A DNA stretch of 64,000 bases. It comes from Geosiphon pyriformis. Lineage: Eukaryota > Glomeromycota > Glomeromycetes > Archaeosporales > Geosiphonaceae. Under the pieces are notes generated by a model. That model ran no database searches and had not been told where the DNA came from. It saw nothing but the letters and a program-made list of their open reading frames with translations. Below are positions 3,091-61,570 of this stretch, piece after piece. The number at the start of each line of letters is the position of its first letter. Position 1 is the first letter of the stretch. The stretch lies in NCBI GenBank assembly GCA_016748015.1, contig JAAOMT010000057.1, positions 390,763-454,762 of the forward strand, given 5' to 3'. The position numbers and the translations under genes are program-made.

Positions 3091-4056
3091 ACCTTTATCT
3101 ATACATCTTATACTGCCATCACTCAATACTAATCAAACTATTGTTGATCCAAGTTAATTTGCATTGATTGTGATAAAAAATTGTTAACAATAGGTATATA
3201 TTGTGGCAATAACAAGAAATGGTCCATAACAATAAAATACTACTGTTAATCATGTGTTCTTAAATGTTTTGAACGACCAAAATGACAAGATAAATGGGAC
3301 AATAAGCCTTGTCTTGCATGTAAAATGATTCTTCCTAATAAAGAAATATGGAATGACATTTCTGAACAAAAAAAAACATGTGACAAAACATGTCAATACA
3401 CAATTTTGATTAACAATTGGATATAAAAAGGGACTCCAATTAATAATGTCTGAAAACAAGCACTACAATACCTAAAAAAATATCCACATAACAAGCATGA
3501 GATTTGGAAAATAGCAAATGCCAAGATTAAAGATGCTTTTCTTAGCAAACTACTGGAAATTAAGAATAATCCATTCACACTATCTGAATACATCCTTACT
3601 TTTGACATCTTTAATGACATTAAAAATGATCTAAAACACTTTTATTAACACTATCAAAACCTGGCACCTACATGAGAAAAACAAAAACAGTGTTTAGAAG
3701 AACTAAACACTCAACTATGTGATCATTGTTTAATTCTATATAACTTTCAATATTGTAATGATTGTGATTTTATTTACAATCTACCATCATGAATGATTTA
3801 TTCAATCTTTAAAAAAGAAGAGCCAATTAGCAAATGTGCAGCAGAATTGGAATCAAAATTCAATCCCAATTCAAACTCTGACAATAATGACAACAATAAC
3901 AGTTTCAGCTTCATTTAAAATGGCAATAACAACAGCAAAAATTCAAATTTTGATTCAAATCCAGAACAATACATTGCATTATTTAATCATTTTAAAGAGC
4001 AAGAACTAAAATGATTCAGTGATAACAATGAAAGTATTATACCAGAACATGTGCAT
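3091..4056 (+). pseudogene. Cysteine-rich block (Zn1, Zn2) and acidic linker of E1
   Basis: Conserved between protease and dUTPase in families A and B. Zn1 spans about 3157-3415: CIDC, then KYYC..C, CLAC and CDKTC, with the signature WDNKPCLAC. Zn2 at 3718-3767 is CX2C-x3-Y-x4-CX2C: the third Cys of the E3/E5 pattern CX2CX3CX4CX2C is Tyr here. An Asn/Ser/Asp-rich stretch (about 3850-3970) follows. The spacing suggests zinc ribbons; the function is unknown. Confidence 0.6.
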
Positions 4057-4437
4057 AATACTGATGTAAAGTTTAATTTGAGATATCTGGGAAAAAATAT
4101 CATAAAATTGAAACCATATTTATTCACTTGTATTGATTTGAAAATAGCTTAGAAATTCTGGCAACTATCATAATGTAATCAGCATCTAGATTTAGTTTAG
4201 CAAAGAAAGGAATTAACATTAGAGAAGGAATAATTGATGCAGAATATGTAGGAAATATTATTGTAATACTACAAAATGACTTGGAAAAAGAATATATTAT
4301 TAAACCAAATGAAAAAATAGCACAGATAATATTTCTATCTCTGGTAAAAATAGCTTAGTTAGTGTCAGTTGAAACAAGGGAAAAATTAAAGATTACAGCC
4401 AGAGAAAAAAATGGATTTGAATCCATAAGTAGGATAG
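4057..4437 (+). pseudogene. dUTPase-like domain of E1, degenerate
   Basis: Trimeric-type dUTPase hydrolyses dUTP to dUMP. Motif 1 is TDVKFNLRY (Mg-binding Asp of FDL now Asn). Motif 3 is GIIDAEYVGNI with catalytic Asp and uracil-stacking Tyr retained. Motif 4 is NEKIAQIIF. Motif 5 is GFESISR, against the family GFGSTGR. The block needs a frame change near 4150. It lies between the zinc block and the reverse transcriptase, as in E3, E4 and E5. Confidence 0.75.
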
Positions 4438-4890
4438 ATATACCAGTTAATATAACAGAGAAAAAAGTTATTGACAAGAGAGAAATTATCTTTACCTGTC
4501 AATTAATTTCCATTCTGCCATATAACTAGTACATGTTAGTCATAAAAAAGAAAGTAAAAGATCAAGCTCAAATTTTTGAAGTAGAAACTACAATTTGTGA
4601 ATCAGGAAATATTGGACTTATCAATCTTTACATATTAGTCAAAAGCCCAAAACACATAAAAATTTCCATCCACAACACAACTGAAAACATTATCGAAATA
4701 CAAAAAAGAACCATCATAGGATATTTAAGCATTGAAGTCGAAAAACAACCACCAGACACCATTCCAGATTTTCCACAACTGTGTAAATATGTAAACATTA
4801 CATTACAAACAATATATAAACAAGAAAAATGTTATTTGCTCCAATCAAAACAATTAAAAGAAATGAACTTGGAAAATCTAGACCCACTTT
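4438..4890 (+). pseudogene. Beta-rich linker between dUTPase and reverse transcriptase, E1
   Basis: Open from 4533 to 4892 (119 codons) in the pol register. It contains GLINLYILVKSPKHIKIS and IQKRTIIGYL, a pattern like the short segment found before the reverse transcriptase in many gypsy Pol proteins. It ends LENLDPL, which continues into the reverse transcriptase. The same linker is present in E5 (53871-54300) and absent from E3 through a deletion. Confidence 0.6.
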
Positions 4891-5790
4891 AAAGAATGCA
4901 GCTCAAAATATTACTCAACAATTTTACAGATATTTTTGCAAGCAAAAATGAATTTAGTAAAACTGATATTATTCAACATTAAATCAAAACTGGAGATGCA
5001 ATGCCAATTAAACAATGAATATACTAAATACTATCAGCTAGTTATAAAATAATTCAATAAGAAATCAACAGAATATTAGACAATGGGTTCAATTATCAAT
5101 GAGTCTATGATTATCACCAGTGGTATTAGTCTATAAGAAGAATAGAAAAATCTGCTTTTGTGTGAATTACAGAAAACTTAATAGTATTACTTATGGAAAC
5201 AGCTATCCAACTCCACATATTCAGAAATTATTTGACACTTTTGGAAGAAAGAAATAGTTCTCAACACTAAACCTAAATAGTGGTTACTGACAAGTAGCCA
5301 TAAAACCAGAAAACAAAGAGAAAACCATATTCACCACAAGAGAAGAAAATTTCAAATTTCAAATAATGCCATTTGGTTTAACCAATACACCAGTCATGTT
5401 CCAATGGCCAATGAAAATTGTTTATACTGGACTGCTATGAAAATCAGTAGTAGTCTACTTAGATAACACCAACATATTCTCAAAAACATTTAATGACTAT
5501 TTTTATTATCTACAGCAAGTGTTTGAGAGATTTAGAAGAGCTGGATTGAAACTAAATACAACCAAATACTTCTTTGGTAAAACAGAATTAAAATTTTTAG
5601 AATATGTCATGAGCAAAAATAAAATTAAGACAGATTCAGATAAGATTGAAATCATTAAAAACTTTCTAGTACCAACAAATCTTATTGAGTTAAGAGCATT
5701 TTTGGGATTTGCTGAATATTATCACCACTTTATCCAAAATTTCTCCAAATTGGCTCAACCACTTTACCAATTTTAAGCCAAAAATGTGAA
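4891..5790 (+). pseudogene. pol: Reverse transcriptase of E1, catalytic YLDD changed to YLDN
   Basis: RNA-dependent DNA polymerase. Recognisable pieces are RKICFCVNYRKLNSI, the VAIKPENKEKTIF palm segment, MPFGLTN, and YLDNTNIFSKTF at about 5455-5490. The second catalytic Asp of YLDD is Asn (GAC to AAC). The thumb/connection is the open stretch 5519-5776, including LKLNTTKYFFGKTELKFL and LRAFLGFAEYYHHFI. The same YLDN is present in E3, while E4 and E5 keep YLDD. Confidence 0.9.
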
Positions 5791-6235
5791 ATACAAATGG
5801 ACAAAAAAACAACAAAAAGCTTTTGATATTTTAAAAAGAAAGTTTATTCAAGCCCTAATATTAATCTATTCAGATTACAGTAAGCTATTCATTATTACTA
5901 CTAATATATTTGGCCAAGCATTAAAAACAGTACTATTTTAGAGAGGACCAGATGGATTAGAACATCCAGTCATATATGCCAGCCAAAAAAAACTATGAAA
6001 CACCAGCACTAAAATACTTAGTTATCTATTAGGCAATTATAAAATAGAAAAAATATTTAAGCCAGAAATTCAAAATATACACTAATTATAAAGGATTGAC
6101 ATCAATCCAAAAACAGAAATTTGGAGACAACTATTATGCCAAATGAAAAATAGAACTTTCACTATTCAAATATATAGTACATTATAAAAAAGAAAAAAAA
6201 ATGAAAATGCCAATAGTTTGTCATAAATGAAACAA
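5791..6235 (+). pseudogene. pol: RNase H domain of E1, broken
   Basis: Follows the reverse transcriptase: WTKKQQKAFDIL, then FIITTNIFGQAL (family FIITTNASGQAL, where the usual Asp of TDAS is Asn), EHPVIYASQKKL, and VHYKKEKKMKMPIVCH in shifted frames. Several single-base shifts and stops. It would degrade the RNA strand of the RNA:DNA hybrid. Confidence 0.75.
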
Positions 6236-6560: not shown

Positions 6561-7501
6561 TGTTACTTATAAAATATAGGAAGTATATTAGCATATAAAT
6601 TAGCCAATCATAGGTAGACGTAGTAAATGTGGAATTTCAAGATTCCTTTCAGAAGAATTGCAGAATTCCAGGAATTGTAGGATTCTTACATGAGGAATCA
6701 CAGGATTCCAGAATTCCAGGATTCCTCTCAAAGGAATTGCAGAATTTCAGGATTCCTGACATAAAGAATTGAAGAATTGAGGAATCTCAAATATGTATAT
6801 ATAGCAGTAGTATCAGAAATTAGAAAATTAGTCAATAGGACTTAAAGTCAATTGATTCGCAGAGTCAATTAGACTCATAGAATCAATTAGACTCGCAAAA
6901 TTATAATAATTAAAAAAAAAAAGAGAATGGACACCAAAAATTCTTAGCTTAGTTACCACAATCCTCAAATAAATAATTATTCACCATATCAAATTCACTC
7001 TTTACTATCAACATGAAGTGTTGATAGTAATTGATACTTAACTACACTGAAACAATAGCTCTTAATCATGGCTATTAACAGAATACTAACTTGCAAATCA
7101 TCTTGGCTTATTTCCTTATATTTTTTTATTTTTTTTATGTTTCTTTGGATTTTGTTATTTGTGCACTAACCAACTGATTCAAAGTGCTAATTACTGATGT
7201 CAAGAATTACCTGGTAAAAGACCTCTGTAAGTAAGTAGACCATGTACAGAAGATATGGATTACTTACCAGAAGATTGCCGGCCACCAAGCCGAGAAAAAA
7301 ATTGACAGATTTGTAAGTCTGAGAAGCTATAGATAAAACAACTATTGAATCTCTGTCTATTATACAAAGAACTCAACCCAAAACCTTTAGATATCAAAAC
7401 CTTCAGATTACCAATACCAACAGCAACAGAAATCAATAGCTTTTGAGCACTGAGTTACGTGTTTAGTATTCACTCTCCACCCCAAAGAAACACCTGTAAT
7501 A
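6561..7501 (+). repeat. 5' LTR of E1b (subfamily A2)
   Basis: 941 bp. The upstream part has an array of GGAAT/ATTCC words (about 6625-6785), then TATATATA near 6795, hairpin HP1 (7002-7030, loop TGAAG), hairpin HP2 from 7052, a T-rich tract and the U5 complement of the primer site. The array differs completely from the TTGCTNAGCAA array of subfamily A1, although the flanking LTR sequence aligns. Confidence 0.9.
7002..7030 (+). other. HP1 palindromic hairpin, loop TGAAG
   Basis: Perfect 12-bp arms TTACTATCAACA and TGTTGATAGTAA around the 5-nt loop TGAAG. The 3' LTR of the same element has identical arms around CTTCA, the reverse complement of this loop. Confidence 0.9.
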
Positions 7502-7626
7502 TTTGGTGCTTTCTGTGAAGTATAATTCAACAAAAAACCAGTACCAACAACAACCATGCAAGAAAGTGGCAGACCAAGAGAAAACAAGGGAAAATCACTT
7601 AGAATTTGCGAAATCCTTATTTTACT
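7502..7626 (+). pseudogene. Primer-binding site and gag N-terminal remnant of E1b
   Basis: TTTGGTGCTTTCTGTGAAG follows the LTR. Then GTGGCAGAC opens about 20 codons matching family-A Gag (ENHLEFAKSLF). Gag stops abruptly where the tandem repeat begins. Confidence 0.75.
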
Positions 7627-8160
7627 ATTACTATTGATAAACTCGTTAAAACTCCAATTATTCAAAACCCAATTGTTAAAACCCCAAACATTTGAAACTC
7701 ACCTTTAAAAAAAAAAAAAAAATTGTTAAATTCAAACTCTGATTATTCAAGATCTGATCATTAAAACCCTGAACATTCGAAAATTACCATTGATAAATTT
7801 GTTAAAAACTCGTTAAATTAAAAAACTCTGTTTATTCAAAATCTGATTGTTAAAACCCTAACTATTCGAAATGTACCATTGATAAATTCATTAAAAACTC
7901 TTTAAATTAAAAACTCCGATTATTCAAGACCCGATCATTAAAACTCTAAACATTTGAAAATTACCATTGATAAATTTGTTAAAAACTTGTTAAATTAAAA
8001 CTCTGATTATTCAAGACCCAATTGTTAAAAAAAAATAAAAAAAAAAAAAAAACCCAAACATTCGAAACCCAATAATTCCAATCCCACTATCGTACAAAGA
8101 AACTTACCATCGATAAAACTTGTTAAACCTTTAGCAATTCAAACTCCTGGAATTATCCAA
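7627..8160 (+). repeat. Tandem repeat array inside E1b
   Basis: Imperfect units of roughly 80-110 bp built on TTGATAAATTTGTTAAAAAC, CTCTGATTATTCAAGA and AACATTCGAAAATTACC; about five to six copies, some broken by poly-A runs. No protein frame is evident. It replaces most of gag-pol and is not seen in E1, E3, E4 or E5. Confidence 0.75.
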
Positions 8161-8330
8161 AAAACCAAACATTTGAAGTCCAATAAATTCCAAACCCTGC
8201 TATCATACAAGGAAACTTATCTCCGATAGCTCAATAAAACCTAATTCTCATAGTACCAATAAATCAGCAAAACTCACCTGATGGTCCTAAGTCAGAATAT
8301 TGGGACGTAGTCACAATCTACTCTTATGTG
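8161..8330. other. Unassigned interior sequence of E1b
   Basis: A short stretch between the tandem array and the pol remnant. It repeats pieces such as AACCAAACATTTGAAG from the array. I see no gene. Confidence 0.4.
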
Positions 8331-8814
8331 TTATATATTCAATGAAGAGCCAATCAGCAAGAACAAATGGGAATCGGAATTAGAACTTAATCCTGATTCA
8401 AACTCCACTGATGACAGCAACAATCCAAACTCTGCTAATGATAGCAACAATTCAAACTCTGCTGATGACAACAACAATTCAAACTCCACTAATGACAAAT
8501 GACAATTTAAACTCCACCAACAACAATTCAAACTCTACTTCAAACACCAAACGATATATCACACTTTTAGATCTTACAATGGAGCAGGAATTAACTCAAT
8601 TCAGTAATAATAATAAGGGCATTATGTTTGAACATGCACATAATACAGATGCAAAATTTGAACATGAATATTCTGAACAGACCACTATAGTTAAAAACCC
8701 CAGTCACATATAAAATTAAATTTACAAATAGCAATAGAAATTACCATAACAACATTGATACAAAAGAGAGATTTAGAAGATTTTGCAGAAGCTCAATATT
8801 AAAGAAGGGAATAA
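8331..8814 (+). pseudogene. Pol remnant of E1b: acidic linker, dUTPase motif 1 edge, C-terminal tail, polypurine tract
   Basis: EEPISKNKWESELELNPDSNS at 8340-8400 matches the linker after Zn2 in the full elements. It is expanded by a 27-bp repeat (about 8396-8510) encoding SNSANDSNN-like nonapeptides. 8580-8680 gives FSNNNKGIM and NTDAKFEHEY, the edge of dUTPase motif 1 (family TDAGFDLRY-like). It then jumps to DFAEAQY, the tail seen before the 3' LTR in E1, E3 and E5, and ends in a purine-rich tract at 8801-8814. Confidence 0.75.
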
Positions 8815-9742
8815 TGTTACTCATAAAATATAGAAAGTATATTAGCATATAAATTAGCCAATTATAGGTAGACGTAGTAAATATGGAATTCCAGGATTTC
8901 TCTTAAAGGAATTGCAAGATACCAGGAATTGCAGGATTCCAGAATTCCAGGATTTCTCTCAAAGAAATTGCAGAATTCTAGGAATTTCAGGATTCCTGAC
9001 ATGAAGAATTGAGGAATTGAGGAATCTCAAATACATATATATAACAATAGTATCAGAAATTAGAAAATTAGTCAATGGAACTTAGAGTCAATTGATTCGT
9101 AAAATCAATTAGACTCATAGAATCAATTAGACTCGCAAAATCATAATAATTAAAAAAAAAAAAGAGAATGAACACCAAGAATTCTTAGCTTAGTTACTAC
9201 AATCCTTAAATAAATAATTATTCACCATATCAAATTCACTCTTTACTATCAACACTTCATGTTGATAGTAATTGATACTTAACTACACTGAAACAATAGC
9301 TTTTGATCATAGCTATTGACAGGATACTAACTTGCAAATTGCCTTGGCTTATTTCCTTATATTTCTTTATTTTCTTTATGTTTCTTTGGATTTTGTTATT
9401 TGTGCACTAACCAACTGATTCAAAGCACTGATTACTGACATCAAAGATTACTTGGTAAAAGACCCTTGCGAGTGAGTAGAACACATACAAAAGTTACAGA
9501 TTACTTACCAAAGGATTGCCAGCCACCAAGCCGAGAAAAGAATTGACAGACTTGTGAGTCTAGAAAGCTATGGATAAAACAACTATTGAATCTTTGTCCA
9601 TTATACAAAGAACTCAACCCAAAACCTTCAGATATCAAAACCTTCAGATTACCAATACCAACAGCAACAGAAATCAATAGCTTTTGAGCACTGAGTTATG
9701 TGTTTAGTATTCACTCGACATCCCAAAGAAATACTTATAACA
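8815..9742 (+). repeat. 3' LTR of E1b (subfamily A2)
   Basis: 928 bp, aligned along its length with 6561-7501. GGAAT/ATTCC array at about 8880-9030, TATA near 9033, HP1 at 9243-9271 with loop CTTCA, HP2 from about 9292. Ends ATAACA, followed by CCAT. Confidence 0.9.
9243..9271 (+). other. HP1 palindromic hairpin, loop CTTCA
   Basis: Same 12-bp arms as 7002-7030, with the loop in the opposite orientation. Confidence 0.9.
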
Positions 9743-9746
9743 CCAT

Positions 9747-15915: not shown

Positions 15916-15919
15916 TTGG

Positions 15920-26412: not shown

Positions 26413-27299
26413 TATTACTCATAAAAAGAAAACAGATATAGAAAAATAGTAAACCAATAGGAGAGTAGTAGTTAGCATGTGAGCACATTGCTCAGCAATG
26501 TAGAACAATGTCAAAAATCATGGCACATGGCTCAGCAATATGGAGCAATATCAGAAATTATGGTATATCACTTAGCAATATGAAGCAATGTCAAAAAAAT
26601 ATGGCACATTGTTCAGCAATGTGAGCATTGCTTGAGAAATTATAGTACTTCATTCGAGAATATGAGTGATCTCATAGAACTCAAATTATGTATATATAGT
26701 GGTAGCATTAGAAGTAAAAAAGACAGACCTCTTAGTTTAGATTTTATCTAAGCAACTTTTTAATCCACAAATATTAATAAATAATTATTCTCTATCTCAA
26801 ATTCACTTCTATTATTAACACTCCATGTTAATAGTAATTGATACTTAACCACACTAGAACAATAGCTCTTGATCACAGCTATTGACGAGATACTAACTTG
26901 CAATTGCTTTTGTTATTTCTTTATTTTCTTTTATTTCTTTTGTTATTCTTTGATTTTTTCTAAGTGATTAAAAATTAAGCACTGAGGTACAGACATCATA
27001 GGAACTTGTAAAAGACCCATGAAACAAGGGTAGAACACTCATAAATTTGAGGATAGCTTACCAGAAAAATTACCAGCCACCATGTTGAGAAAGAAATTTG
27101 ATAGAATTGCAATTCCGAAAGGCTATTGAAAACAACTATTAAATCTCTGTCCATTATACAAAGAACTTAACCAAAACCTTCAGATACCAAAACCTTCAGA
27201 CAACCATACCTTCAGAAATTAACAACATCACTATATTCATCAAGCACCAAGTTACAGGTTTGTTATTTGCTTTGAAACCCCAAATAATTATCTGTAACA
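26413..27299 (+). repeat. 5' LTR of E3 (subfamily A1)
   Basis: 887 bp, starts TATTAC (TG to TA), ends GTAACA. TTGCTNAGCAA array at about 26475-26640, TATATATA at 26691, hairpins HP1 (about 26808-26835, loop CTCCA) and HP2 (26860-26884), T-rich tract, U5 motif AGCACCAAGTTAC. Confidence 0.92.
26860..26884 (+). other. HP2 leader hairpin of family A
   Basis: Arms CAATAGC and GCTATTG around TCTTGATCACA (family loop TCTTGATCATG). It lies about 165 nt downstream of the TATA box, so within the predicted transcript leader. Family B has CAATTGC/GCAATTG with the same loop. Confidence 0.75.
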
Positions 27300-31327: not shown

Positions 31328-31667
31328 ATGCCAGAACGTACACATAATACTGATGCAGAATTTGATTTAAGATATCCAGGAAAATATTCCATCAAATTAG
31401 AACCCCATTTGTGCATCAGTATTGATCTTAAGATAGTATTAGAAATTCCAGCAACAACAATGGTTCAGTTAGCATCTAAGAATAGCCTAGCAAAAAAGGA
31501 AATCAACATCAGAGAAGGAATAATTGATATAGGATATGTAAGAAATATTATTGCTATGCTACAAAATGATTCAAAAAAGACATATATTATAGATCCAAAT
31601 GAAAAAATAGCATAGACAATATTTCTATCTCTGGTGAAAGTAGCTCAACTAGTATCAGTGGTTTACA
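31328..31667 (+). pseudogene. dUTPase-like domain of E3, motif 5 deleted
   Basis: Open for 96 codons. Motif 1 TDAEFDLRYPGK, motif 2 SKNSLAKKEI (family SRSSLAKKG), motif 3 GIIDIGYVRNI with catalytic Asp and Tyr, motif 4 NEKIA then TAG. Text jumps from VAQLVSV to YYLLQPEQLE at about 31668-31690, so motif 5 and the linker seen in E1 and E5 are gone. Confidence 0.85.
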
Positions 31668-35212: not shown

Positions 35213-36110
35213 TGTTACTCATAAAAAGAAAACAGATATAGAAAAATAGTAAACCAATAGGAGAGTAGTAGTTAGCATGTGAGCACATTGCTCAGCAATA
35301 TGGAACAATATCAGAAATTATGGCACATTGCTCAGCAATATGGAGCAATGTCAAAAATTATGGCATATCACTCAGCAATGTGAAGCAATGTCAAAAAAAT
35401 ATGGCACATTGCTTAGCAATATAAGCATTGCTTAAAAAATTATAGCACATCACTCGAAAATGTGAGCAATCTCATAGAACCCAAATTATGTATATATAGT
35501 AATAGCATTAGAAGTAGAAAAGACAGACCTCTTAGTTTAGATTTTATCTAAGCAACTTTCTAATTCACAAATATCAATAAATAATTATTCTTTATCTCAA
35601 ATTCACTCTCATTATCAACACTCTATGTTGATAGTAATTGATACTTAACCACACTGAAACAATAGCTCTTGATCACAACTATTAATAGAATATTAACTTG
35701 TAATTGCTTTTGTTATTTTTTTATCTTCTTTTATTTTCTTTTATTTCTTTTGTTATTCTTTGATTTTTTTCTAAGTGATTAAAAATTAAGCACTGAGGTA
35801 CAGACGTCATAGAGACTGGTAAAAAACCCATAAAACAAAGGTAGAACACTCATAAATTTAAGGATAACTTATTAGAAGGATTACTAGCCACCATGCTAAG
35901 AAAAAAATTTGATGGAATTGCAATTCCGGGAGACTACTGAAAACAACTATTAAATCTCTGTCCATTATACAAAGAACTTAATCAAAACCTTCAGATACCA
36001 AAACCTTTAGACAACCATACCTTCAGGAATTAACAACATCACTATATTCATCAAACACCAAGTTATGAATTTGTTATTTGCTTTAAGACCCCAAATAATC
36101 ACCTATAACA
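35213..36110 (+). repeat. 3' LTR of E3 (subfamily A1)
   Basis: 898 bp, TGTTAC to ATAACA. TTGCTNAGCAA array about 35285-35465, TATATATA at about 35490, HP1 at about 35602-35632 (loop CTCTA), HP2 at about 35660. It differs from the 5' LTR mainly by transitions. Confidence 0.92.
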
Positions 36111-48110: not shown

Positions 48111-48686
48111 CTTAAGATAATTGAATGCTTTCTGTTGGTCTTTTTTCTATAGATACTGTACATGTTTGAACAATAACTGGTAAAGTGGTTTTATAATAGT
48201 CAAGAATTCTTTGATGAATCATCAATAGTATTCTGCCAATTCTAAAAATTCTTATAATTCTTTGAGGTTGATTGGAGCTAGAAAATCTTTGACTTTTTGG
48301 ATCTTATCTGGATTAGGTTTGACTTTATTTTTTCTGATTACATGTTCTAGGAATTTCAATTCAGTTTTTTCAAAGAAGTATTTATTAGAATTGAGTTTCA
48401 ATCCAACACCATGAAGGCATTTGAAAACTTGCTGAAAATAGAGCAAGTAATTATCAAATGTTTCTAAGAAGACATTAGTGTCATCTAAGTATACTATAAC
48501 TGATTTCCACAAGATTTTTTTGTACATAACATTCATAAGACATTAGAAAATAATAGGAGCATTATAGAGTTCAAAGAGCATTACGTTGAACTTGAAGTTT
48601 CTATTTCAGATAGTAAATGCTGTTTTTTTTTTGTCTTTGGAGTCCATTTCAATCTGCTAATATTTACTGGCTAGATCTAATAATGA
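48111..48686 (-). pseudogene. pol: Reverse transcriptase C-terminal half of E4, YLDD kept
   Basis: Open 94 codons (48252-48536): VIVYLDDTNVFLETFDNYLL, FKCLHGVGLKLNSNKYFFEK and KVKDFLAPINLKEL. Left of it is connection text. To the right it reads TLDLASKY-like text up to the E5 insertion at 48687. Confidence 0.9.
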
Positions 48687-49540
48687 TGTTACTGATGATT
48701 ATTTGGGGTCTCAAATCAAATAACAAATCTGTAACTTGGTGCTCAATAGATATAATAATGTTGGTAATTTCTGAAGGTGTGTTGTTCTGAAGGTTTTAGT
48801 TGAATCTTTTGTATAATGGACAGAGATTTAATGATAATAGTGTTATCCATAGCTTTCCAAAATCTTAGTTTTGTCAATTTCTTTTTTAGTGTAATGGCTA
48901 GTAATCCTTTTGATAAGCTATTCTTAATCAAGTGTTTTACCCTTATTTCTGGGTCTTTTACCAGTTACTTTATTCTGATGTTAGTACCTTTATCTGTAAA
49001 TTTTTTTTAATTAAGTTAACAAATAACAAAGAAATAAAACAAGAAAAAAAAATAAAAAAAATAAGAAACATAAGTCAAGGCAATTTGCACATTAGTATTT
49101 TGTCAATAGCCATGATCAAGAGCTATTGTTTTAGTGTGGTTAAGTATCAATTACTATCAACACTTCATGTTGATAGTAGAGAGTAGATTGAGATAGTGAA
49201 TAATTATTTATTGATATTTGTGAATGGAAAGTTGCTTAAATCAAATCTAAACTAAAAAGTCTGTCTTTTCTACTTCTAATACTACCACTATATATACATA
49301 ATTGAGATTCTTCAATTCCTTAATTCTTCACACCAGATATCCTGGAATTTTTGTAATCTTGCAATTCCTTTGAGAGGAATTCTGAAATTCTGAAATCCTG
49401 CAATTCCTTGTACAAGAATCTTGAAATTCCTGGAATCCTGCAATTCCTCTGAAAAGAATCCTGGAATTCCACATTTACTATGATTACTTCTGATTGGCTA
49501 ATTTATATGCTAATATACTTCTTATATTCTATGAGTAACA
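48687..49540 (-). repeat. 3' LTR of E5 (subfamily A2)
   Basis: 854 bp. GGAAT/ATTCC-word array at about 49305-49475, TATATA near 49292, HP1 at 49151-49178 (LTR-sense loop TGAAG), HP2 at about 49109-49130. Confidence 0.92.
49151..49178 (-). other. HP1 hairpin, LTR-sense loop TGAAG
   Basis: Plus strand shows TTACTATCAACA, CTTCA, TGTTGATAGTA; in the sense of the minus-strand LTR the loop is TGAAG. The 5' LTR of E5 has the other orientation. Confidence 0.85.
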
Positions 49541-51110
49541 TTATTTTTTTCTTTTTAATATTGAGCTTTGTTAAGATCTTCTAATTCTAATTCTCTATTT
49601 TTAAGTATTTCTTGAATTTTTTTTTCAAAAATTACTTATGTTATCTTGTTCTGTAATTCTTCAAATTGAGCATTGGTTATTTTTTCCATTTGGTTGATAG
49701 TAATGGAGTTTATTTCTGGATTGAGTAAAATTTCTGGTCAATCTTAAAATCTGGTGTATAGCCAATAAATGGTTTTTGTGTATATAGTCAAATTGTTTTT
49801 CCTTACAAATTGTTTCAATTGTTGTAGTATTGTTGCATCAAATAATCATTTTGTTTTATCTGTGTACAAGCCCTGAATGTTCAAGTGTTGTTCCAAATAA
49901 AAGTAACAAAAGTTTTTTGAAAATTGTTGTATTCACCAATTCCAAGTTTCTATAGTTAATTCTTGATATTGGGTGACCTTTGGTTGTGTTTCTATTGCCA
50001 ATTTCACTTTTGTGATTATTTTGTCCACAGTGTTTTCTGTTTTTCTCTGTATTTTCACTCATGGTCCTTTTCTGATGTTACTCATAAAAAGAAAACAGAT
50101 ATAGAAAAATAGTAAACCAATAGGAGAGTAGTAGTTAGCATGTAAACACATTGCTCAGCAATGTGGAGCAATATCAGAAATCATGGCACATTGCTTGAAA
50201 AATTATAGCACATTGCTCGAAAATGTGAGTGATCTTGTAGAACCCAAATTATGTATATATAGTGATAGCATTAGAAGTAGAAAAGACAGATCTCTCAGTT
50301 TAGATTTTATCTAAGTGATCTTTTAATTCACAAATATCAATAAATAATTATTCTCTATCTTAAATTTACTTTCATTATCAACACTCTATGTTGATAGTGA
50401 TTGATACTTAACCACACTGAAACAATAGCTCTTGATTATGGCTATTGATGGAATATTAACTTGCAATTGCTTTTGTTATTTCTTTATTTTCTTTTATTTT
50501 CTTTTATTTTCTTTTATTTTCTTTTATTTCTTTTGTTATTCTTTGATTTTTTTCTAAGTGATTAAAGATTAAATACTAAGATACAAACATCATAGAGACT
50601 GATAAAAGACCCGTAAAACAAGGGTAGAACACTCATAGATTTAAGGATAGCTTACCAGGAAAATTACCAACCACCACACCGAGAAAGAAATTTGATGAAA
50701 TTGTGATTCTGGGAGGCTACTGAAAACAACTATTAAATCTCTGTCTATTATATAAAGAACTTAACCAAAATTTTTAGATACTAAAACTTTCAGACAACTA
50801 TACCTTCAGAAATTAACAACGTCACTATATCCATTAAGCACCAAGTTATGGATTTATTATTTGCTTTGAGATTCCAAATAATCACTTATAACACTGGTGT
50901 TTGTGTATTTAATAATTTGTTGATTAATTGTAATTTCCATTTCCTGTTGTTGAATTAGTTGAAAGAGTTGTTGTGCTAGTAAGTGAATATTATCCATAAT
51001 CTTCATTTTTTGCTGTCTTTTGTTACGTATATTGTGTCTTTATATACTTTTTGGTTGTTCAATTTTATGTGTTTGGTTCGATGATTATAATTGGTTCTAA
51101 ATCTTGTAGA
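49541..51110 (-). pseudogene. Post-integrase extension of E5, split by a solo LTR
   Basis: Two pieces, 49541-50074 and 50894-51110. Minus-strand readings include FEELQNKIT, FEKKIQEILKNRELELEDL, then AQY and a purine tract before the LTR. PEILLNPEINSITINQMEKI matches the E1 and E3 extension. LAQQLFQLIQQQ lies on the far side of the solo LTR. Confidence 0.62.
50075..50893 (+). repeat. Solo LTR (subfamily A1) in E5, opposite orientation
   Basis: 819 bp, TGTTAC to ATAACA, flanked by CTGA (50071-50074) and CTGG (50894-50897). Nearly identical at its start to the E3 LTRs but with a shorter TTGCTNAGCAA array (about 50148-50225). HP1 loop CTCTA. TATATATA at about 50256. Confidence 0.9.
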
Positions 51111-52330: not shown

Positions 52331-52960
52331 AAAATATTTTGATTGTTGTTTTATGTTCCTTTGTTCTTTTTGAGATAATTTCTCCTTGAACAATTGAGTA
52401 TTTATATAATGTTGGAGTTGTTGGTATTTTTGTATATTCATCTTTTGTTATATTTTTGGGTTAAAATGTTTTTAGATTTGTTTTATTTGTGACAGACCAT
52501 TAGCATTTCTGTTTTCTTTTCCTTTTTTGTAATGTACTGTATAATTGAATGGTAAAAGTTTTATTTTCTATCTTGCATAATAATCATCTCCAAATTCTTG
52601 CTTTTGGATTGAAGTCAATTCTTTGTGATTAGTGTATACATTAAACTTTTGACTCAAGTATTCTTTTTATTTGGTGACAGCCCAATAGATAGCTAAGTGT
52701 TCTAATGCTGGAGTTTTATAGTTCTTTTTAGCTGGACTTAAGCTTTTACTGGCATAAGCTACTGAATGGTTTTGTCCATCCAGTCTTTTCTGAGATAATA
52801 CTACTCTTAATGCTTAATCCGATACATTAGTTGTAATTATGAATGGCTTGTTATGATCTGAATAAATCAATACTGAAGCTTGAATAAGCTTTTTTCTTAA
52901 TGTATCAAAAGCTTTTTGCTGGGTTTTTGTCCATTCATATTTAGTGTTTTTTGTTTGGAG
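52331..52960 (-). pseudogene. pol: RNase H of E5, broken
   Basis: KAFDTLRRKLIQ-like text, FIITTNVSD (TDAS to TNVS), SVAYASKSLSPAKKNYKTPAL, HLAIYWAVTK, FNVYTNHKELTSIQKQEFGD, VHYKKGKENRNANGLSQ. The left 150 bases are tether text. Confidence 0.8.
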
Positions 52961-53870
52961 CTGGTGTAGTAATTGAGCTATTTTGGAAAAGTCTTTGATA
53001 AAATGGCAGTAGTATCCAGCAAATTCCAAGAATGCTCTTAATTTTGTGAGATTATTTGGTATTGGAAAGTTCTTGACAATCTCAATCTTATCTGAATTTG
53101 TCTTAATTCTGTCTTTGCTAACAATGTGTCTCAAAAACTTAAGTTTAGTTTTTCCAAAGAAATATTTGGTTGTATTCAATTTTAATTCTGCTTGTCTAAG
53201 TCTTTTAAATACTTGTTGGAGATGATACAAATGATCATCAAATGTTTTTGAAAACACATTGGTGTCATCTAAATATATGACTACTGATTTCCATAGTAGC
53301 TCTGTATAAACAATTTTCATAAGTCACTGAAAAATGGCTGGATTATTCATCAAGCCAAATGGCATAACTTCGAATTCAAAGTTTTTTTCTTGTGTTGTAA
53401 AAGTCATTTTTTCTTTGTCTTCTGGTTTCATGACTACTTGCCAGTAACCACTGTCTAAGTCTAGTGTTGAAAACCATTTTTTTTCTCCAAAAGCATCAAA
53501 CAGCTCTTAAATCTTTGGTATTGGATAGCTATCTCTTTTGGTTACTTCATTCAGTTTTTAGTAATTTACACAAAAGTGGATTTTTCTATTTTTTTTATGG
53601 ACTAGTACCATTGGTGATAACCATGGGCTCATTGATGGCTAAATTAGCCTTTGTCAAACATCTGATTGATTTCTTGATGAATGATCTCATGGCTGGCTGG
53701 TGGTACTCTGTATGCTCTCTGTTTAATTGGCATTGTATCTTCAGTCTTGATTTGATGTTGGATAATATCAGTTTTGCCAAATTTGTTTTTACTGGCAAAG
53801 ATATCATTAAAATTGTTGAGTAATATTTTGAGTTGCATACGTTGAAATGGGTCTAAGTTTTCCAAATTCA
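52961..53870 (-). pseudogene. pol: Reverse transcriptase of E5, YLDD kept
   Basis: The open stretch 52814-53320 (168 codons) begins KIVYTELLWKSVVIYLDDTN and runs through LKLNTTKYFFGKTKLKFL and LRAFLEFAGYYCHFI into RNase H. The N-terminal piece (53644-53880) reads LKILLNNFNDIFASKNKFGK and MPIKQRAYRVPPASHEII. Palm text between them is broken by stops. Confidence 0.9.
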
Positions 53871-54300
53871 TTTGTTCCAATTGTTTTGGTTGGAGCAGAT
53901 AACATTCTTCTTATCTGTATATAGTTTGAGATGTGATATCTACATATCTGCACAGTTATAGAAAGTCTGAAATAGTGTTTGGCATTTGGTCTTCAATTTT
54001 TGTGATCAAGTATTCAATGATGGTTTTTTTTGGTATTTCAATGATATCTCTTATGTTGTTATAAATGGGAATTTTGATGTGTTTGTGGTTTTTGGCTGGT
54101 ATGTATAGATTGATTAATCCAATCTTTCCTGATTTACAAAGTGTTGTTTCTGCCTCAAAAATCTGAACCTGATCCTTTACTTTTTTTTTTATGACTACTA
54201 TGTACTGGTTATATGGTGGAATGGAAATTGATTAATGGGTGGAAATAATTTCTCCCTTGTCAATAATTTTTTTTTCTGTTATATTAACTGGTATATTTAT
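53871..54300 (-). pseudogene. Beta-rich linker between dUTPase and RT, E5
   Basis: Minus strand: INIPVNITEKKIIDKGEIIS, KKKVKDQVQIFEAETTL, IGLINLYIPAKNHKHIKIPI, EYLITKIEDQ, then YLLQPKQLEQMNLENLDPF. Full-length counterpart of the E1 linker and of the part missing from E3. Confidence 0.65.
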
Positions 54301-54700
54301 TCTACCCATAAATTTGAATTCTTGTATCTCTCTTGCTGTTATCCCTAATTCTTCTTGGTTTTCTACTAATACTAATTAAGCTATTTTAACTAGAGACAAG
54401 AATATTGTCTGTGTTATCTTTTCATTTGGATTTATAATATATGTCTTTTCTGAGTTATTTTGTAGTATAGCAATGATATTTCCTATGTATCTTGTGTCAA
54501 TTATTTCTTCTCTGATGTTGATTCCCTTTTTGGCTAAGTTACTCCTAGATATTAATTGCACTATTGTTGTTGCTGGAATTTTCAGTGCTATTTTGAGATC
54601 AATGCAGATGCATGAATAGGGTTCCAATTTAATAGGATTTTTTCCCAGATATCTCAGATCAAACTCTGTATTGGTATCATGCACATGTTCTGACATAATA
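54301..54700 (-). pseudogene. dUTPase-like domain of E5, motifs 1-5 in order
   Basis: Motif 1 TEFDLRYLGK (about 54640-54690, Mg-binding Asp kept), then KLEPYSCICIDLKIALKIP, motif 2 SRSNLAKKGI, motif 3 EIIDTRYIGNI (54481-54510, catalytic Asp and Tyr kept), motif 4 NEKITQTIF, motif 5 AREIQEFKFMGR (54301-54340; family RGIQGFGSTGR, glycines lost). Open from 54376 to 55008 apart from motif 5, which follows one stop in the same frame. Confidence 0.87.
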
Positions 54701-55590
54701 TCTTTATCATTATTGCTGAACCATTTAAGTTCCTGCTTTTTGGTAAGATCAGGAAATGTGATATATGTTTCAGGGTTTGAATCAGAGTTTGAATTATCAT
54801 AATTTTCATTGCCATTTTGAATGAAGCTGAAACCATTATTTTCATCATTATCATTGTCAGAGTTTGAATTGGGATTGAAAGTTGATTCTAATTCTGATGT
54901 GCAGCTGCTGATTGGTTCGTCTTCTTCTGGAATCGTGTAGATCATGTGGATTGGTAGATTGTAAATGAGATTACACTCATTACAATATTGAAAGTTACAT
55001 GAGATCAAACAGTAGTCACATAGTTAAGTGTTAATTTTTTTCAAATATTGTTCTTGTTCTTTTCAAGTGGGTGCCAATTCTTGGTAGTGCTCATAGAATT
55101 GTTCTGAGTCTAAGAAATTTATGACTGGTTCTGGGTTCCAGTCAAGTTTTATGAGTTTTGGAGGGTTATTTTTTATTATCCTAATTTCTTTTGGTGATGT
55201 GCCTTCAATTTTGGCAAGTGCCATTCATCATATTTTATCATTATTGTGTGGACAGCCATCTAAACATTTAACTGTTTATCTCTAGGCAATGTCTATGAGT
55301 GTTTTTTTTCTTATCCAGTCACTTATGAGAATTGTGTACTGACATGATTTGTTGCACATTCCTCTTCTCCCAGGAATTTTATTCCACATTCCTTCATTTA
55401 GGAGAGTTTCACTACATGCCAAGTATGGTTTGTTGTTCCATTTTCCTTGTTTTTTTGGTTGTCCAAACTGTTTAATATTGTATGGGTGGCAATAGAATTT
55501 AGTTGCCATTTGCCATTCTTCATCATCATCACAGCATGTGCCTATTGTGGACAATTTCTTGTCACAATTAATGCATACTAGTTTCAGTCA
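54701..55590 (-). pseudogene. Zn1/Zn2 block and acidic linker of E5
   Basis: Minus strand. Zn1: LVCINCDKKL (about 55560-55585), FYCHPYNIKQFGQPKK, WNNKPYLACSETL, IPGRRGMCNKSCQY; open 55282-55554. Zn2 at 54972-55022: CX2CX3CX4CX2C with all Cys (CDYCLISCNFQYCNEC). An Asp/Asn/Ser-rich linker at 54770-54900 leads into the dUTPase. Confidence 0.68.
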
Positions 55591-56350
55591 GCAATAGTTA
55601 GATGGTGGTGGTGTGGTATAGGTATAAAGAATATAAGTGGCAGTAGTGGTTAGTGCTGGCTCTTCTTTTTTCCTTTTTTCTTTTCCTTTTGTTTTTTCCT
55701 TCCACTCTCAAATTGATGATTTGTTTGGTTCATTATCAGTTCTTTAGGCTTGGTTGGCATTCCAGGTAAGTTCTTTCTTTTGTTTTTTTTTTCTGTTGTT
55801 TCAAGAAGGTATTAACAGTAACTTGTTGTGGTCATCTTTAGCCCATAACACTTGATAAGCTTTCCAGATAAGTTTCTTCTCTTCTTCTTCAAACTTAATG
55901 AATAGTGCTAATGGCATAGTGATGGGTTTGAAGTGACCACACATGACAGATACCCATGTGTGTTAACTGTCCTGGCTAAGTTGTAATTTCTGTGTGTTCC
56001 AGTCAAGCATGATATTTGTTTTGACTAGCCAGTCATTACCAACTAAGGCTTGGTACTGCATAGCTTCTATCACCAAAACTTTGATTGGGATAATAATGCC
56101 ATTTACTTCAAAGAAAAAATCATCAATCTCACTAATAGAAGTTTTGGTCACTCCATCAGTCATTATTATCCTGGCACTGGCAGTGCGATCAATCTGGCAA
56201 TCTAATTGGTCTATAAGTTGTTTTGTAATGATGCTGCCAGTTGATCTACTATCTAAGATCAGTTTGATGAAGTGGCTATTCACTTTAGCATTTGTATACA
56301 TGGCAGTAATTGGTTTTTCTTCAAGTATGGCTCTACTAAACAAGAGCATA
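55591..56350 (-). pseudogene. pol: Protease of E5, catalytic Asp kept
   Basis: Open 128 codons (55963-56349): LILDSRSTGSIITKQLIDQL near 56210-56275, VNGIIIPIKVLVIEAMQYQA and GNDWLVKTNIMLDWNTQ. Gly of DSG is Arg. The left part, 55591-55960, is a Lys/Glu-rich linker including TWE/KAYQVLWAKD-like text. Confidence 0.85.
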
Positions 56351-58675
56351 AATGACAGTTCTTCAAGTTCAAATAGGAATATTGTTGCTAGTGAGTCATT
56401 GTCAATAACAGTGGCTGAAAATATGTTGCTGGTCAGTGATTTGGTTTGATTAGATTCCTGGTTGTTGGATGAGGCATCTTTTGAGGTAACCAGTAGACTT
56501 AAATAGGATTGGGAATTTGGGTTTTGGGCATACCTGGTGCCTGAATTCTATTGTTGAGATTCTAATAGTTGTGTTAAAGAACTGGAGATTGGTTGGTAGA
56601 CAATCATTGATAATCTCCAAATTTGGGTAACTCTTGATCTGGGATTCTCTGATGTTATCTGAGCTGAGTTTACTGGTGGTGATAGAATTGGTTGGAATTA
56701 ATATATTGTTTGAGGCTGTAGCTGATAGATAGGTTGAGACTGCAGTTGATAAATGATGGGTGTTGTCAGCTGATAAATTGGAGCTTAATATATAGGTGGT
56801 TAATAAATTGGCTGTTGCATCATTTGGGTGTAATGAGGTAAGTATTGATCTTAATTTGTATTCTAATTCAGAGTTTGAAACCTGTGATCAAGATTTTGAT
56901 ATTGATTTCCTGATTGTGAGTTATTATTATAAAAGCAGCAGTCAATTCTCAAATGGTCTTATTTACCACAATTGTGGCAGATATGCGTTTCTTGCTGCCA
57001 TAGCTAATTAGATAATAATTATGAACATGATTAATTTTGGGAGCAATTTATGTTTCCAGAATTATTATGTCATTGGAGTGGCTAATAAATTGCATGATTG
57101 TCAGTTATGTATCCTTCTAATTTCTGATTAATTGAATCACTGAGTTGTTTCAATTTGGAATTCAAGTCAGATGATCTATTTATGACTAAGTTTACAGCTT
57201 GGGCATGATTAGTCTTTAATTTAGCTGACTCAAAGTCTCTGGCCTGTGTAACTGCATCTTGGAGTGTTGGTGGATGTAATAGTCATATGCATTGAAGAAG
57301 GCTACTGTGCAGGCCATGAATAAATTGGTTTAGAATCTGTGGTGCTGTAAAATAGTCAGTCTAAATTGCTTGAATTTGGTGCAAGTTTCTGTAGAAGCAT
57401 TCCAAGTAAGTGGTAACTGCTTTAGTTTCTCCCTGTTTGATTATAGTGAAGGCATTGGCTAAGTGATTAATACTATTATTATTGCTGAAATATCCCAAGA
57501 ATGCAATTTTAAATTTCTAGAATGTTTGAGATTTGGTGGTTAAACTCTGATATCACAAGTCGGCAGTATCTTGTAGAAAATAGGAGATCACTTGAAGGGC
57601 TCTGTTATTGTTCTATTTATTGGCTGTGATGGTTTTTTCTACATCATTAAGTCATACTTGAGCATCATTCTCTTTGTCAGTAAATTTTTCTATCTTGATG
57701 ATTGGAGCATAGGCCATTGGTTATTGTTATTGTGGGGGTGGTGGTTGAAGTTGTTGTTAAATAGGTTGCTGAAGTGGCTGCTGTTGAATCAGTTCAATAA
57801 TCAGTTCAATTGGTTGCTAATCAATAACAATTACTGGAGATAAAGTTTTGCTAATTAATTGTTTCAAAGTTTGGATTGTTTTGAGTTTGCTGGGTTTGAA
57901 TGTTCAGAGTTTTAACTTCCAGATTTTCAAAAATCGGGTTTTGATAATTGAATTCCTGATTATTGTCTTTCTCTTCTTTTGATTCCATTAATTTCTAAGA
58001 ACTTGTATTTCCGAAATCTGGTGGAAGTGGTGGTGATTAAAATCCTGATGGCATTGGTGATCATAATTTAAATTCTTTAAAATATTCGCCATATGATCCC
58101 AATAACTCTGCTCTTCTTTATTTATTTTAAAATAGGAATTGTCCAAAGATTGATGTTGTATTTGATGTGGACATGTCTGCTGAGGAGATATTGATGGCAC
58201 TTCTTGACATATAATGGTATAATAGATTGGTTGGTAATTTAACTCTGGTTTTCTTCCAAGTGGGTAGTTGTATCTTTTTGGGTATTACTGCTAGTGTTTA
58301 CAATCTTCTTTTGCCTTTGTCTATGTAGGTGATGGGGAATTGTTGTTGGGTGTACCTTTCAATGGTTTGATTGATTTCCCCAATAATTGGTGCAAAACTG
58401 TAGTTTCTTGGTAAACTGGTATGTTAAAATAATTCTGTATAGAAATTTTCCCTTGTGGATTCAATATTAATTGTTCCTCCTAAGCAGTCTGTGATTTTAT
58501 TATTAACATAAAAATTGAAGGCTGATTCTGCTGGAAAATGGTTATTGTTTAATCCTAACTGTTGGCTGTACTGTTGAAACAAGGATTTGGCAAATCCTAA
58601 ATGGTTGGTTTCTATGATTTCTGATTCTGCCACTTTTGGATAATTGTTGTTGATGCTGGTTCTCTGTAGGATTAT
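56351..58675 (-). pseudogene. gag: Gag of E5 (capsid and zinc knuckle), broken
   Basis: Minus strand. N-terminus 58424-58633 (ETNHLGFAKSLFQQY), Gln/Pro-rich linker near 57720-57800, capsid text 57100-57700 (YLGCFYRNLHQIQAI-like, ILNQFIHGLHSS-like), knuckle 56938-56979 reading C-H-N-C-G-K-stop-D-H-L-R-I-D-C: four ligands kept with a CAA-to-TAA stop inside. Gln/Tyr-rich tail 56350-56900. No ATG for the N-terminus. Confidence 0.82.
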
Positions 58676-58695
58676 ACTTTACAAAGAGCACCAAA
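58676..58695 (-). other. Primer-binding site of E5
   Basis: Minus strand TTTGGTGCTCTTTGTAAAGT directly after the LTR end, like E1. Confidence 0.75.
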
Positions 58696-59510
58696 TGTTA
58701 TTAATGATTATTTGCAGTCTCAAATCAAATAACAAATCTGTAACTTGGTGCTCAATAAATATAATAATGTTAGTAATTTCTGAAGATGTGTTGTTCTGAA
58801 GGTTTTGGTTGAGTCTTTTGTATAATGAACAGAGATTTAATGATAATAGTGTTATCTGTAGCTTCCCAAAACCTTAATTTCATCAATTTTTTTCTCAATG
58901 TAATGGCTGGTAATTCTCCTGGTAAGCTATCTTCAATCAAGTGTTCTACTCTTATTTCTGAGTCTTTTACCAATGACTTTATCCTGACATCAGTACCTCC
59001 ATATGTAAATCTTTTTTAATCAAGTTAACAAATAACAAAGAAATAAAACAAGAAAAGAAAAATAAAGAAAATAAAAAACATAAGCCAAAGCAATTTGCAC
59101 ATTAGTATTCCATCAATAACTATGATCAAAAGCTATTGTTCCAGTATGGTTAAGTATCAATTACTATCAATATAAAGTGTTAATAATGGGGAGTAGATTG
59201 AGATAATAAATAATTATTTATTAATATTTGTAAATAGAAGGTTGCTTAGATTAAATCTAAACTAAGAGATCTGTCTTTTTTACTTCTAATACTACTGCTA
59301 TATATACATAATTGAGATTCCTCAATTCTTCAATTCCTCAATTCTTTACACCAGGAATTCTGAAATTCTGCAATTTTTTGTATGAGAATCCTGAAATTTT
59401 TGGAATTCTGCAATTCTTCTGAAAGGAATCCTGAAATTTCACATTTACTACAGTTATTTCTAATTGGCTAATTTATATGCTAATATATTTTCTATATTCT
59501 ATGAGTAACA
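58696..59510 (-). repeat. 5' LTR of E5 (subfamily A2)
   Basis: 815 bp. GGAAT/ATTCC-word array about 59310-59440, TATATA near 59300, HP1 at 59161-59189 with LTR-sense loop CTTTA, U5 complement of the primer site at about 58740. Confidence 0.92.
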
Positions 59511-59514
59511 ATAA

Positions 59515-60337
59515 GAACCATTTTTTGTTTCCTAAATTGTTCAGAATTTCTTAAATAAGAGGTGTGAGATAACTATCTTCTTGGGTGATGCTGTTTAGCT
59601 TTTAGTAGTCTACACAGAATCTTATCTTCCCATTTTTCTTGGTGACCAGGACCACTGGAAAAAACCAAGAGCTTAGTAATTCTTTAATTAAGCCATTGTT
59701 AAGCATTTATTGTACTTCTTGCTTAATTAGATTATCATCAAATGGGAGCACTCAGTAGACCTACTGTTTAATAGGTTGTGTATCTTCTGTATCAATCTAA
59801 TGCTTTACAATGTCAATGTGTTCAAACTCATTTTTATTGACAAAAACATCAACATATTAATTTAAGAGAACCTTAAATTGAATTTGCTAGAGAGTATTCA
59901 GGTTTCCCAAATGTAGTTTGTTGATTTCTTTTGATATGAACAGATAATTTTTTTTTGACAAGTTCTATACTTGTAAGATAATATTGCAAAATAAGAATAG
60001 TTGTGTAAAGTCTGGAATGGGTTGGGTTTTTTTGGGATGTTAAATGTCTGATGAAATGGAACCAATAAGAGTCTCTTTGGGGATTTTAATGACATCTTTT
60101 ATGGGTTTGTGGATGGAGATTTTGAAGTGTTTATGAGTTTTGGCTGGTAGGTATAAGTTAGCAACATCAGTTAGGGAACAAATTTCAGAACTGGCTTCAA
60201 ATAACAGGACTTGATCTTGAATTTTTCAATTCATTTTAAGGATATATTGTTGATATAAAGGAATAGAAATAACTGTATCAGTATAAATAAGTTCTACCTG
60301 GTCATTGTCTTCCTCCATGAAGTTGATTGGTACATTT
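59515..60337 (-). pseudogene. pol: Linker and N-terminal half of the E4 reverse transcriptase
   Basis: Minus strand: VNVPINFMEEDNDQVELIYT, SIPLYQQYILKMN, NLYLPAKTHKHFKISIH, IPKETLIGSI, NYLFISKEINKLHLGNL, DVFVNKNEFEHIDIVKH, WFFPVVLVTKKNGKIRFCVDY, LNSITQEDSY, EILNNLGNKKWFL. It ends at the E5 insertion, resuming at 48682. Confidence 0.87.
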
Positions 60338-60725
60338 ACTCTTTTACTTGATCCAAATCTGTTGATTCTTTGGACAGTGAAGCCTAATTCTTCTTGAATT
60401 GTTACCAAAATTAATTGGAGTATTTTGACTAAAGATAGGAAGATAGCTTGAGTAATTTTTTCTTGTAATTCTATTTTGTAAAATTTGTCTGAATTGTTCT
60501 GTAGCATCATACTAATGTTTTCCATATAATTAGCATTAATGATTCCTTCTTTTATGTTGATTTCTTTCTTGGCTAGATTAGATCGAAAAGCAACTTGTAC
60601 CATTGTACTAACAGGAATTTCTAATGCTATCTTAAAATTTATTGTTACAAGAGAATGTGAGACTATAACTATAGGTGATTGTCTGGAATATCATAGGTCA
60701 AAACTAGCATCAGTGTCATGTGTTC
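60338..60725 (-). pseudogene. dUTPase-like domain of E4 (family B)
   Basis: Motif 1 DTDASFDL (about 60690-60725), motif 2 FRSNLAKKEI, motif 3 GIINANYMENI (catalytic Asp is Asn, Tyr kept), motif 4 QEKITQAIF, motif 5 RINRFGSSKR at 60338-60385 (family GFGSTGR). 60226-60603 is open for 125 codons. This shows the domain in a second LTR family. Confidence 0.87.
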
Positions 60726-61570
60726 TATTAAACAGATTTTTTTTTTGTTGTCACTATATCATTTTAATTCTAATTCTTTGAAAAGATTTGGATAAGCAAG
60801 ATACTATTCTGTTTTAGTATCCTTAGTTGAATTTTGAAATGACATATTCTCAGTGATTAATTCCTTTTCTACCTCAGACTCAGGTAGTTTGGTAATTGAA
60901 TATAGTTTTCTTAGAGATGGATTAAACATAAGATCACATTTATTGCAGTACTGAAAATAACAAGAGATCAAACAATAATTGCACAGTTTTATGTTTAAGT
61001 TAGCTAACTACTGTTCTTGCTCTTTTCAAGTTAGAGCCAATTCCTAATATTGATTTTGAAATGTGTCTAAGTCATCCATAAAAAAATCTTCTATGATGTA
61101 GTTGGGTTCATTGTATTCTGGTATAAACAGATTTTCTTTGATTTTTTGTATTTTACCAAGTGTGGCATATTTGGCTTTGGCACTTGCCATTCTCCATATT
61201 TTGTGTTCATTATGTGAGTAATCATTTAATCTACTGAGTGCTTGTTTCCAGGTATTTTTAATTAGGGTTTTTTTTCATACCCAATCATTGATCAAAATAG
61301 TGTATTAACATGCTTCATCATATGTTCCTTCTCTGCTGGGAACATCATTCCATAGTTCTTCATTTGGCAGGATCTTGCCACAAGCAAAACATGATGTATT
61401 ATCTTATTTATCTTGTCATTTTGGTTTGCTAAATCTTTTTAACACACAAAATCTGTAGTAATGTTTGGTAGTGGTTGGCTATTTTTTGTTATCTTTGATA
61501 TATGCACCCATAAAAGATAACTTTTTCTCACAGTTAACACAAATTAATTTCAGGATTTAATATCATTAAT
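60726..61570 (-). pseudogene. Zn1/Zn2 block of E4
   Basis: Minus strand. Zn1: LICVNCEKKLSFMGAY, YYRFCVLKRFSKPK, CFACGKILPNEELWNDVPSR, DEAC; MASAKAKYATLGKI follows. Zn2 at 60934-60983: CX2CX3CX4CX2C complete (CNYCLISCYFQYCNKC). The acidic linker is shorter than in family A. Confidence 0.65.

Follow-up and report, generated by a model that had tools for sequence, protein, structure and literature searches.

We analysed a window of 64,000 nucleotides from the 124.7-Mb genome of Geosiphon pyriformis, a glomeromycete of the order Archaeosporales (contig JAAOMT010000057.1, positions 390,763 to 454,762). It holds the nested remains of long terminal repeat (LTR) retrotransposons of the Ty3/Gypsy type, and four of the copies (E1, E3, E5 and E4) carry a dUTPase domain between protease (PR) and reverse transcriptase (RT). 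On sequence grounds these are very probably decayed elements whose Pol polyprotein ran PR-CYS-dUTPase-LINK-RT-RNase H-integrase, with a dUTPase that is a predicted enzyme and was inherited together with RT. CYS is a cysteine-rich domain ahead of the dUTPase and LINK the domain behind it.

Elements and domains in the window

An intact Pol frame found elsewhere in this genome (locus L007, protein P0001; 1132 residues, with protease at 58-147, dUTPase at 501-632 and RVT_1 at 866-1025) was divided into pieces, which served as tblastn queries against the window. In all four copies the dUTPase match (E 3e-25 to 6e-33) lies collinear between the protease and RT matches. PR, CYS, dUTPase and RT are in line in the four copies and LINK as well in three of them; the reversed window gave no match at E 0.01. 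An earlier reading of this DNA from its letters alone (the original prediction) had placed a dUTPase between PR and RT in four Gypsy copies, and its sites agree with ours within 42 bases. Membership in the dUTPase family is likewise borne out by profile search: against a PF00692 cut-off of 22 bits, stop-free pieces score 39.5 (E1), 33.6 (E3), 41.5 (E5) and 39.0 bits (E4), and the intact P0001 frame 87.4 bits. The 45-residue start of the E1 dUTPase, submitted to Pfam as a fifth piece, had no match.

The predicted series of ordered motifs stands in part. The Asp and Tyr of motif 3 are readable in E1 (GIIDAEY), E3 (GIIDIGY) and E5 (EIIDTRY), and in E4 the Asp is replaced by Asn. Motif 5 is eroded in E1, E5 and E4; in E3 it was deleted along with LINK, so that the dUTPase adjoins RT directly. 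Downstream of RT, E3 continues with RNase H (92.5 bits) and the integrase H2C2 domain (62.4 bits), and PR, RT, RNase H and H2C2 thus follow each other in Ty3/Gypsy order. The integrase-core piece of E3 (rve_3) stayed below its cut-off, and a piece of E5 had no match. Paired LTRs were found for E2, E3 and E5, while E1 and E4 are not seen in full; E5 is nested in E4, whose RT match breaks at 59506 and resumes at 48686. The window copies are dead elements. Their features are as follows (tblastn E-values refer to pieces of P0001; LTRs are from self-comparison).

2475..2924, +, E1 protease (E 1e-33)
3142..3765, +, E1 CYS domain, between PR and dUTPase (E 7e-39)
4015..4433, +, E1 dUTPase (4015-4149 and 4146-4433; frameshift at about 4147, two stops)
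4473..4871, +, E1 LINK domain (E 5e-21; dUTPase-like fold according to a low-confidence model, without catalytic motifs)
4878..5905, +, E1 reverse transcriptase, two frames (tblastn)
6561..9740, +, E2, an LTR element within E1 (LTRs 6561-7499 and 8815-9740, identity 0.904)
8522..8701, +, fifth dUTPase remnant, in E2, domain start only (tblastn with P0011, E 5e-11)
26415..27299, +, E3 5' LTR (partner 35215-36110, identity 0.905)
29661..30077, +, E3 protease (E 4e-46)
30458..31054, +, E3 CYS domain (E 2e-51)
31304..31660, +, E3 dUTPase, motif 5 deleted (tblastn, PF00692)
31727..32782, +, E3 reverse transcriptase (E 2e-135)
32654..33937, +, E3 RNase H and integrase pieces (H2C2; rve_3 under its cut-off)
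35215..36110, +, E3 3' LTR
48686..49543, -, E5 3' LTR (partner 58695-59513, identity 0.862)
52820..53856, -, E5 reverse transcriptase, two frames (tblastn)
53863..54267, -, E5 LINK domain (E 5e-22)
54301..54729, -, E5 dUTPase, one stop (tblastn, PF00692)
54973..55593, -, E5 CYS domain (E 1e-47)
55927..56373, -, E5 protease (E 3e-46)
58695..59513, -, E5 5' LTR
59905..60321, -, E4 LINK domain (E 1e-12)
60337..60726, -, E4 dUTPase, one stop, motif 3 Asp replaced (tblastn, PF00692)
60936..61550, -, E4 CYS domain (E 5e-37)
61752..62192, -, E4 protease (E 6e-45)

A further family of the window, C (PR 22955-23311, RT 23837-24805), gave no dUTPase match in tblastn, just as had been predicted. The CYS domain, which separates PR from the dUTPase in the four window copies, is about 225 residues long; across 17 aligned copies, 14 cysteines are kept in most rows having a letter there. 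It has no match in Pfam and none in PDB under E 0.17, and we regard its occurrence ahead of a dUTPase as new. Also within the window, a plus-strand LTR resembling that of E3 sits inside E5 at 50147-50899, and positions 38001-44000, between elements, have a G+C content of 15-17% versus 23-36% in the other 2-kb steps.

Abundance and descent of the dUTPase

In a genome profile search all 150 scored loci outside the window passed the PF00692 cut-off, 127 of them without internal stop. These loci were the best-looking of 3181 first-look candidates, none in the window, and the count is therefore uninformative on the average copy. A dUTPase-LINK query found at least 123 matches in the genome, with 122 of 4708 candidates scored, and a dUTPase query matched 1192 public proteins (among the 120 listed, 117 from Geosiphon, two from ENA and one from Racocetra fulgida); the genome and protein counts are lower bounds. 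Intact relatives hold the five dUTPase motifs in order, including the Asp and Tyr of motif 3. The structure model of the element dUTPase shows the dUTPase fold, the enzymes of feline immunodeficiency virus (FIV) and equine infectious anaemia virus (EIAV) being among the best, tied fold matches.

In a tree of 43 dUTPases the Geosiphon elements (three families) and their relatives are split from all others with support 100. The relatives comprise nine ENA/JGI Pols (P0170, P0032, P0033, P0166, P0167, P0169, P0171, P0175 and P0176), P0080, P0155 and the Racocetra protein P0140. The split was recovered on 41 rows (support 100/98); W_E4 and P0198 were excluded from the second dUTPase tree. The trees included 16 of 54 loci plus the window copies, and rows covering too little RT fell out (e.g. 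E4, P0170 and P0011). In the host's cellular dUTPase gene (L050, at C262:402632) the coding sequence is interrupted by introns. Its best exon shares 71% identity with a generic cellular query, and the gene clusters with the dUTPases of yeast, Chaetomium and Naegleria. A clade uniting host gene and Geosiphon elements is rejected by the approximately unbiased (AU) test with p 1.5e-12, which agrees with the original prediction that the host gene was not captured separately in each copy.

Distances between dUTPases and between RTs are strongly correlated across 28 elements (Mantel r 0.93; 0 of 5000 permutations as high), and in comparisons between groups the dUTPases are 1.0-1.45 times as far apart as the RTs; the dUTPase therefore appears to have travelled with RT. 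P0193 was excluded from the Mantel test and from the second RT tree. The branching of the three Geosiphon families differs between the dUTPase and RT trees at weak support (59 and 69). The dUTPase-less family C and P0180 are placed, also with weak support, among dUTPase-bearing RTs, and the AU test decides neither for nor against an AM-type dUTPase-bearing clade that excludes both (p 0.19); the dUTPase was likely lost in family C. Two scans of viral contigs confirmed no relatives. As to a phage source of the dUTPase, 788 records match, all below 60% identity (33-40% among six listed), and no clear source emerged.

Judged by these trees and distances, the element dUTPase is an old, inherited part of Pol and no copy of the host gene. 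A single acquisition before the families split had been predicted, and with ENA/JGI Pols and one Racocetra protein among the relatives it would in fact be older still. Geosiphon thus adds a glomeromycete with abundant dUTPase-bearing Gypsy elements, in which the putative enzyme seems to have been kept with RT across deep splits.

The LINK domain and the common Gypsy connector

LINK has no match in Pfam (two sequences) or by profile against PDB sequences. All 50 PDB matches listed for its structure model, which is of low confidence, are dUTPases; the domain shows no catalytic motif and lacks the motif 3 Asp-Tyr of an active dUTPase at the aligned site. The alignment behind the model (A3) contained 26 of 37 prepared rows; P0001 was omitted, as were P0030, P0040 and P0182, which reach into the dUTPase. 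Residues 1-6 of the query still belong to the C-terminal part of dUTPase motif 5, but the fold matches start at residue 15 or later. In local hhalign comparisons LINK matched the element dUTPase profile with E 0.028 (2 of 200 shuffles as good), a cellular dUTPase set with E 0.12 (12 of 200) and other elements with E 0.0042 (0 of 200), while in global mode 0, 53 and 97 of 200 shuffles, respectively, were as good. The LINK profile included rows reaching into the dUTPase (P0004, P0030, P0045 and the starts of others), by which the dUTPase match can only have been raised.

LINK also matches the stretch that commonly connects PR and RT in Gypsy Pols (hhalign E 4.6e-5 over 74 columns; 1.5e-5 to 4.4e-4 with one row left out at a time). 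This connector set represents eight of the ten dUTPase-less Pols examined; P0207, whose printed stretch starts within the domain, and P0180, in which the domain was not seen, were left out. Its ends were trimmed by eye, and the LINK match is therefore favoured more than the dUTPase match. The connector itself aligns with dUTPase profiles as well, with 0 of 200 shuffles as good.

We read a LINK domain after the dUTPase as new. The Geosiphon elements may thus carry a working dUTPase followed by a defunct one, which may reveal something new about the architecture of such elements. A wider reading, to which we give slightly less than even chances, is that the PR-RT connector of Ty3/Gypsy Pol in general is a dead dUTPase; the Geosiphon elements would then be a tandem of live and dead domains, and the many dUTPase 'captures' at this site would not be unrelated gains but cases in which an old dUTPase slot survived, was duplicated or was filled anew. 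If the connector is indeed a dead dUTPase, a segment of Gypsy Pol that so far has no name would acquire both an origin and a fold, and the recurrence of dUTPases at one site of Pol would become testable.

Function, decay and known systems

Place, motifs, fold and common descent with RT are established as far as sequences and models go, and the proposed history and mechanism are as follows. The dUTPase, probably a trimer-type all-beta enzyme and equipped with all five motifs in intact copies, was most likely acquired in a single event well before the Geosiphon families diverged, and has since been inherited with RT. The protease would release it from Pol, or it would work inside Pol. In the particle it would split dUTP into dUMP and pyrophosphate, which would let RT make uracil-poor cDNA while host dUTPase is low. 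This scheme is modelled on lentiviral dUTPases, which are described as important in non-dividing cells (PMC4531489).

Several observations weigh against an active enzyme. The window has no intact copy and dUTPase activity is only predicted; P0032, P0033, P0166, P0167 and P0169 are without the last Gly of motif 5. Within a single family (between 24 and 30 loci, depending on the domain; 30 for the dUTPase) dN/dS is 0.43 for dUTPase, 0.48 for PR, 0.32 for CYS, 0.43 for LINK and 0.49 for RT. A neutral C-to-T simulation yields 0.50, 0.58, 0.38, 0.58 and 0.60, so near to these values that the within-family test of selection is uninformative; the dUTPase is little below its simulated value, and recent copies mostly decay. 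In the same family mean conservation is 0.896 in the motifs versus 0.924 outside. Young copies are mostly neutral in all domains alike, and constraint is visible only between families.

An alternative is that the dUTPase has lost or changed its enzyme role and now has a structural or regulatory function within Pol, e.g. as a spacer before RT or in contact with host proteins, as LINK seems to do. LINK does suggest that a dUTPase-type domain can persist in Pol without catalytic motif, and within the young family conservation is no higher in the motif columns than elsewhere; the motifs are, however, maintained between AM-type families at mean dUTPase distances of 0.7-1.1, and we consider such a loss of function unlikely. 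Still less probable is a role of the dUTPase in resisting a defence that acts through C-to-T change or uracil, which the original prediction had proposed for elements 'drowned in C-to-T change'. G-to-A changes do accumulate in retroviruses without dUTPase (PMC4531489), and the coding strands of the elements tend to be A-rich and G-poor. Between the LTRs of E2, E3 and E5 transitions outnumber transversions 10 to 27 fold (81:3, 80:8 and 104:9; in total 265:20). Pooled differences on the coding strand amount to 114 C/T (356 conserved C) and 151 G/A (284 conserved G), i.e. 0.243 per C versus 0.347 per G (Fisher p 6e-4), a modest, unexplained G/A excess that speaks slightly for the proposal. Yet these changes are two-stranded and arose after integration, and therefore should lie beyond the reach of a dUTPase acting in reverse transcription; CpA is not favoured above background over the three pairs, although the G/A changes of E3 lean toward it. 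The dUTPase as a cure for this decay is thus not supported. Separate captures of host dUTPases, one per family, would fit the frequent gain of domains by LTR elements and the dUTPases of Postia and Phanerochaete, which have been read as independent gains (PMC2864245). Against this, L050 groups with cellular dUTPases, its clade with the elements is rejected and the dUTPase site in Pol is identical across mapped loci. For the present host gene this scenario is refuted, while capture from another fungus is conceivable; overall it is hardly credible. We favour a predicted enzyme inherited with RT.

The site of the dUTPase had been called unusual, a claim that is not supported for Gypsy: the PR-dUTPase-RT order of Gypsy elements is already known from Postia, bdelloid rotifers and planarians. 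dUTPases are nevertheless termed rare in retrotransposons (PMC5408684). Our literature search, with subscription papers including the Phanerochaete report lying outside it, found no report of a Rhizophagus retrotransposon dUTPase, of Geosiphon pyriformis retrotransposons or of the dUTPase fold in retrotransposons; for a dUTPase-like domain with RT it returned only the planarian elements (PMC6431247). Elsewhere, a metavirus noted as having a dUTPase is named as a proxy for the PNMA gene ancestor (PMC11011659), betaretrovirus dUTPases are called similar to those of fungal chromoviruses (PMC2774666) and Entomophthora muscae is enriched in dUTPase domains (PMC11105155). Other arrangements were seen in passing. 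P0197, P0198 and P0202 (ENA) are Copia-type Pols in which the integrase SH3-like domain precedes the dUTPase; in P0198 the dUTPase (224-350) stands between SH3 (111-182) and RVT_2 (585-771). Among the matches listed, judged by titles and abstract beginnings, no report of a Copia-type dUTPase was found. P0193, a Pol of Dendrobates tinctorius, has RVT_1, integrase core and dUTPase domains.

PosPlaTy3-5 of Postia is likewise a Ty3/Gypsy element of a fungal host with its dUTPase between PR and RT; compared by description, the available text on Postia and Phanerochaete chromoviruses mentions neither CYS nor LINK (PMC2864245). The bdelloid elements Juno, Vesta and TelKA share the site in an animal host, and Juno has an extra zinc knuckle after the dUTPase, unlike the Geosiphon elements with their cysteine-rich domain before it (PMC5408684). 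Planarian giant Gypsy elements also carry a dUTPase-like domain between PR and RT but differ in their giant Gag-fusion frames and animal host (PMC6431247). In non-primate lentiviruses and betaretroviruses the dUTPase is part of Pol or Pro too, though located between RNase H and integrase or with PR upstream of RT (PMC4531489). The dUTPase of Epstein-Barr virus (EBV; 2bsy, 2bt1) has two dUTPase-type domains per chain, as the Geosiphon elements may. Foldseek aligned it over 231-248 model columns (rmsd 20 or more), with LINK on its second half (residues 121-233), a likeness of build and not of kinship; herpesvirus motifs are arranged otherwise (PMC4531489), whereas in Geosiphon the first domain contains the complete set of five. 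The nearest dUTPase relatives are the nine ENA/JGI Pols and the Racocetra protein of the dUTPase tree. The ENA/JGI Pols other than P0170 have no LINK match, and in P0032, P0033 and P0176 the RT match starts within about 30 residues after the dUTPase. P0170, like the Geosiphon elements, has PR-CYS-dUTPase-LINK-RT, in a single frame.

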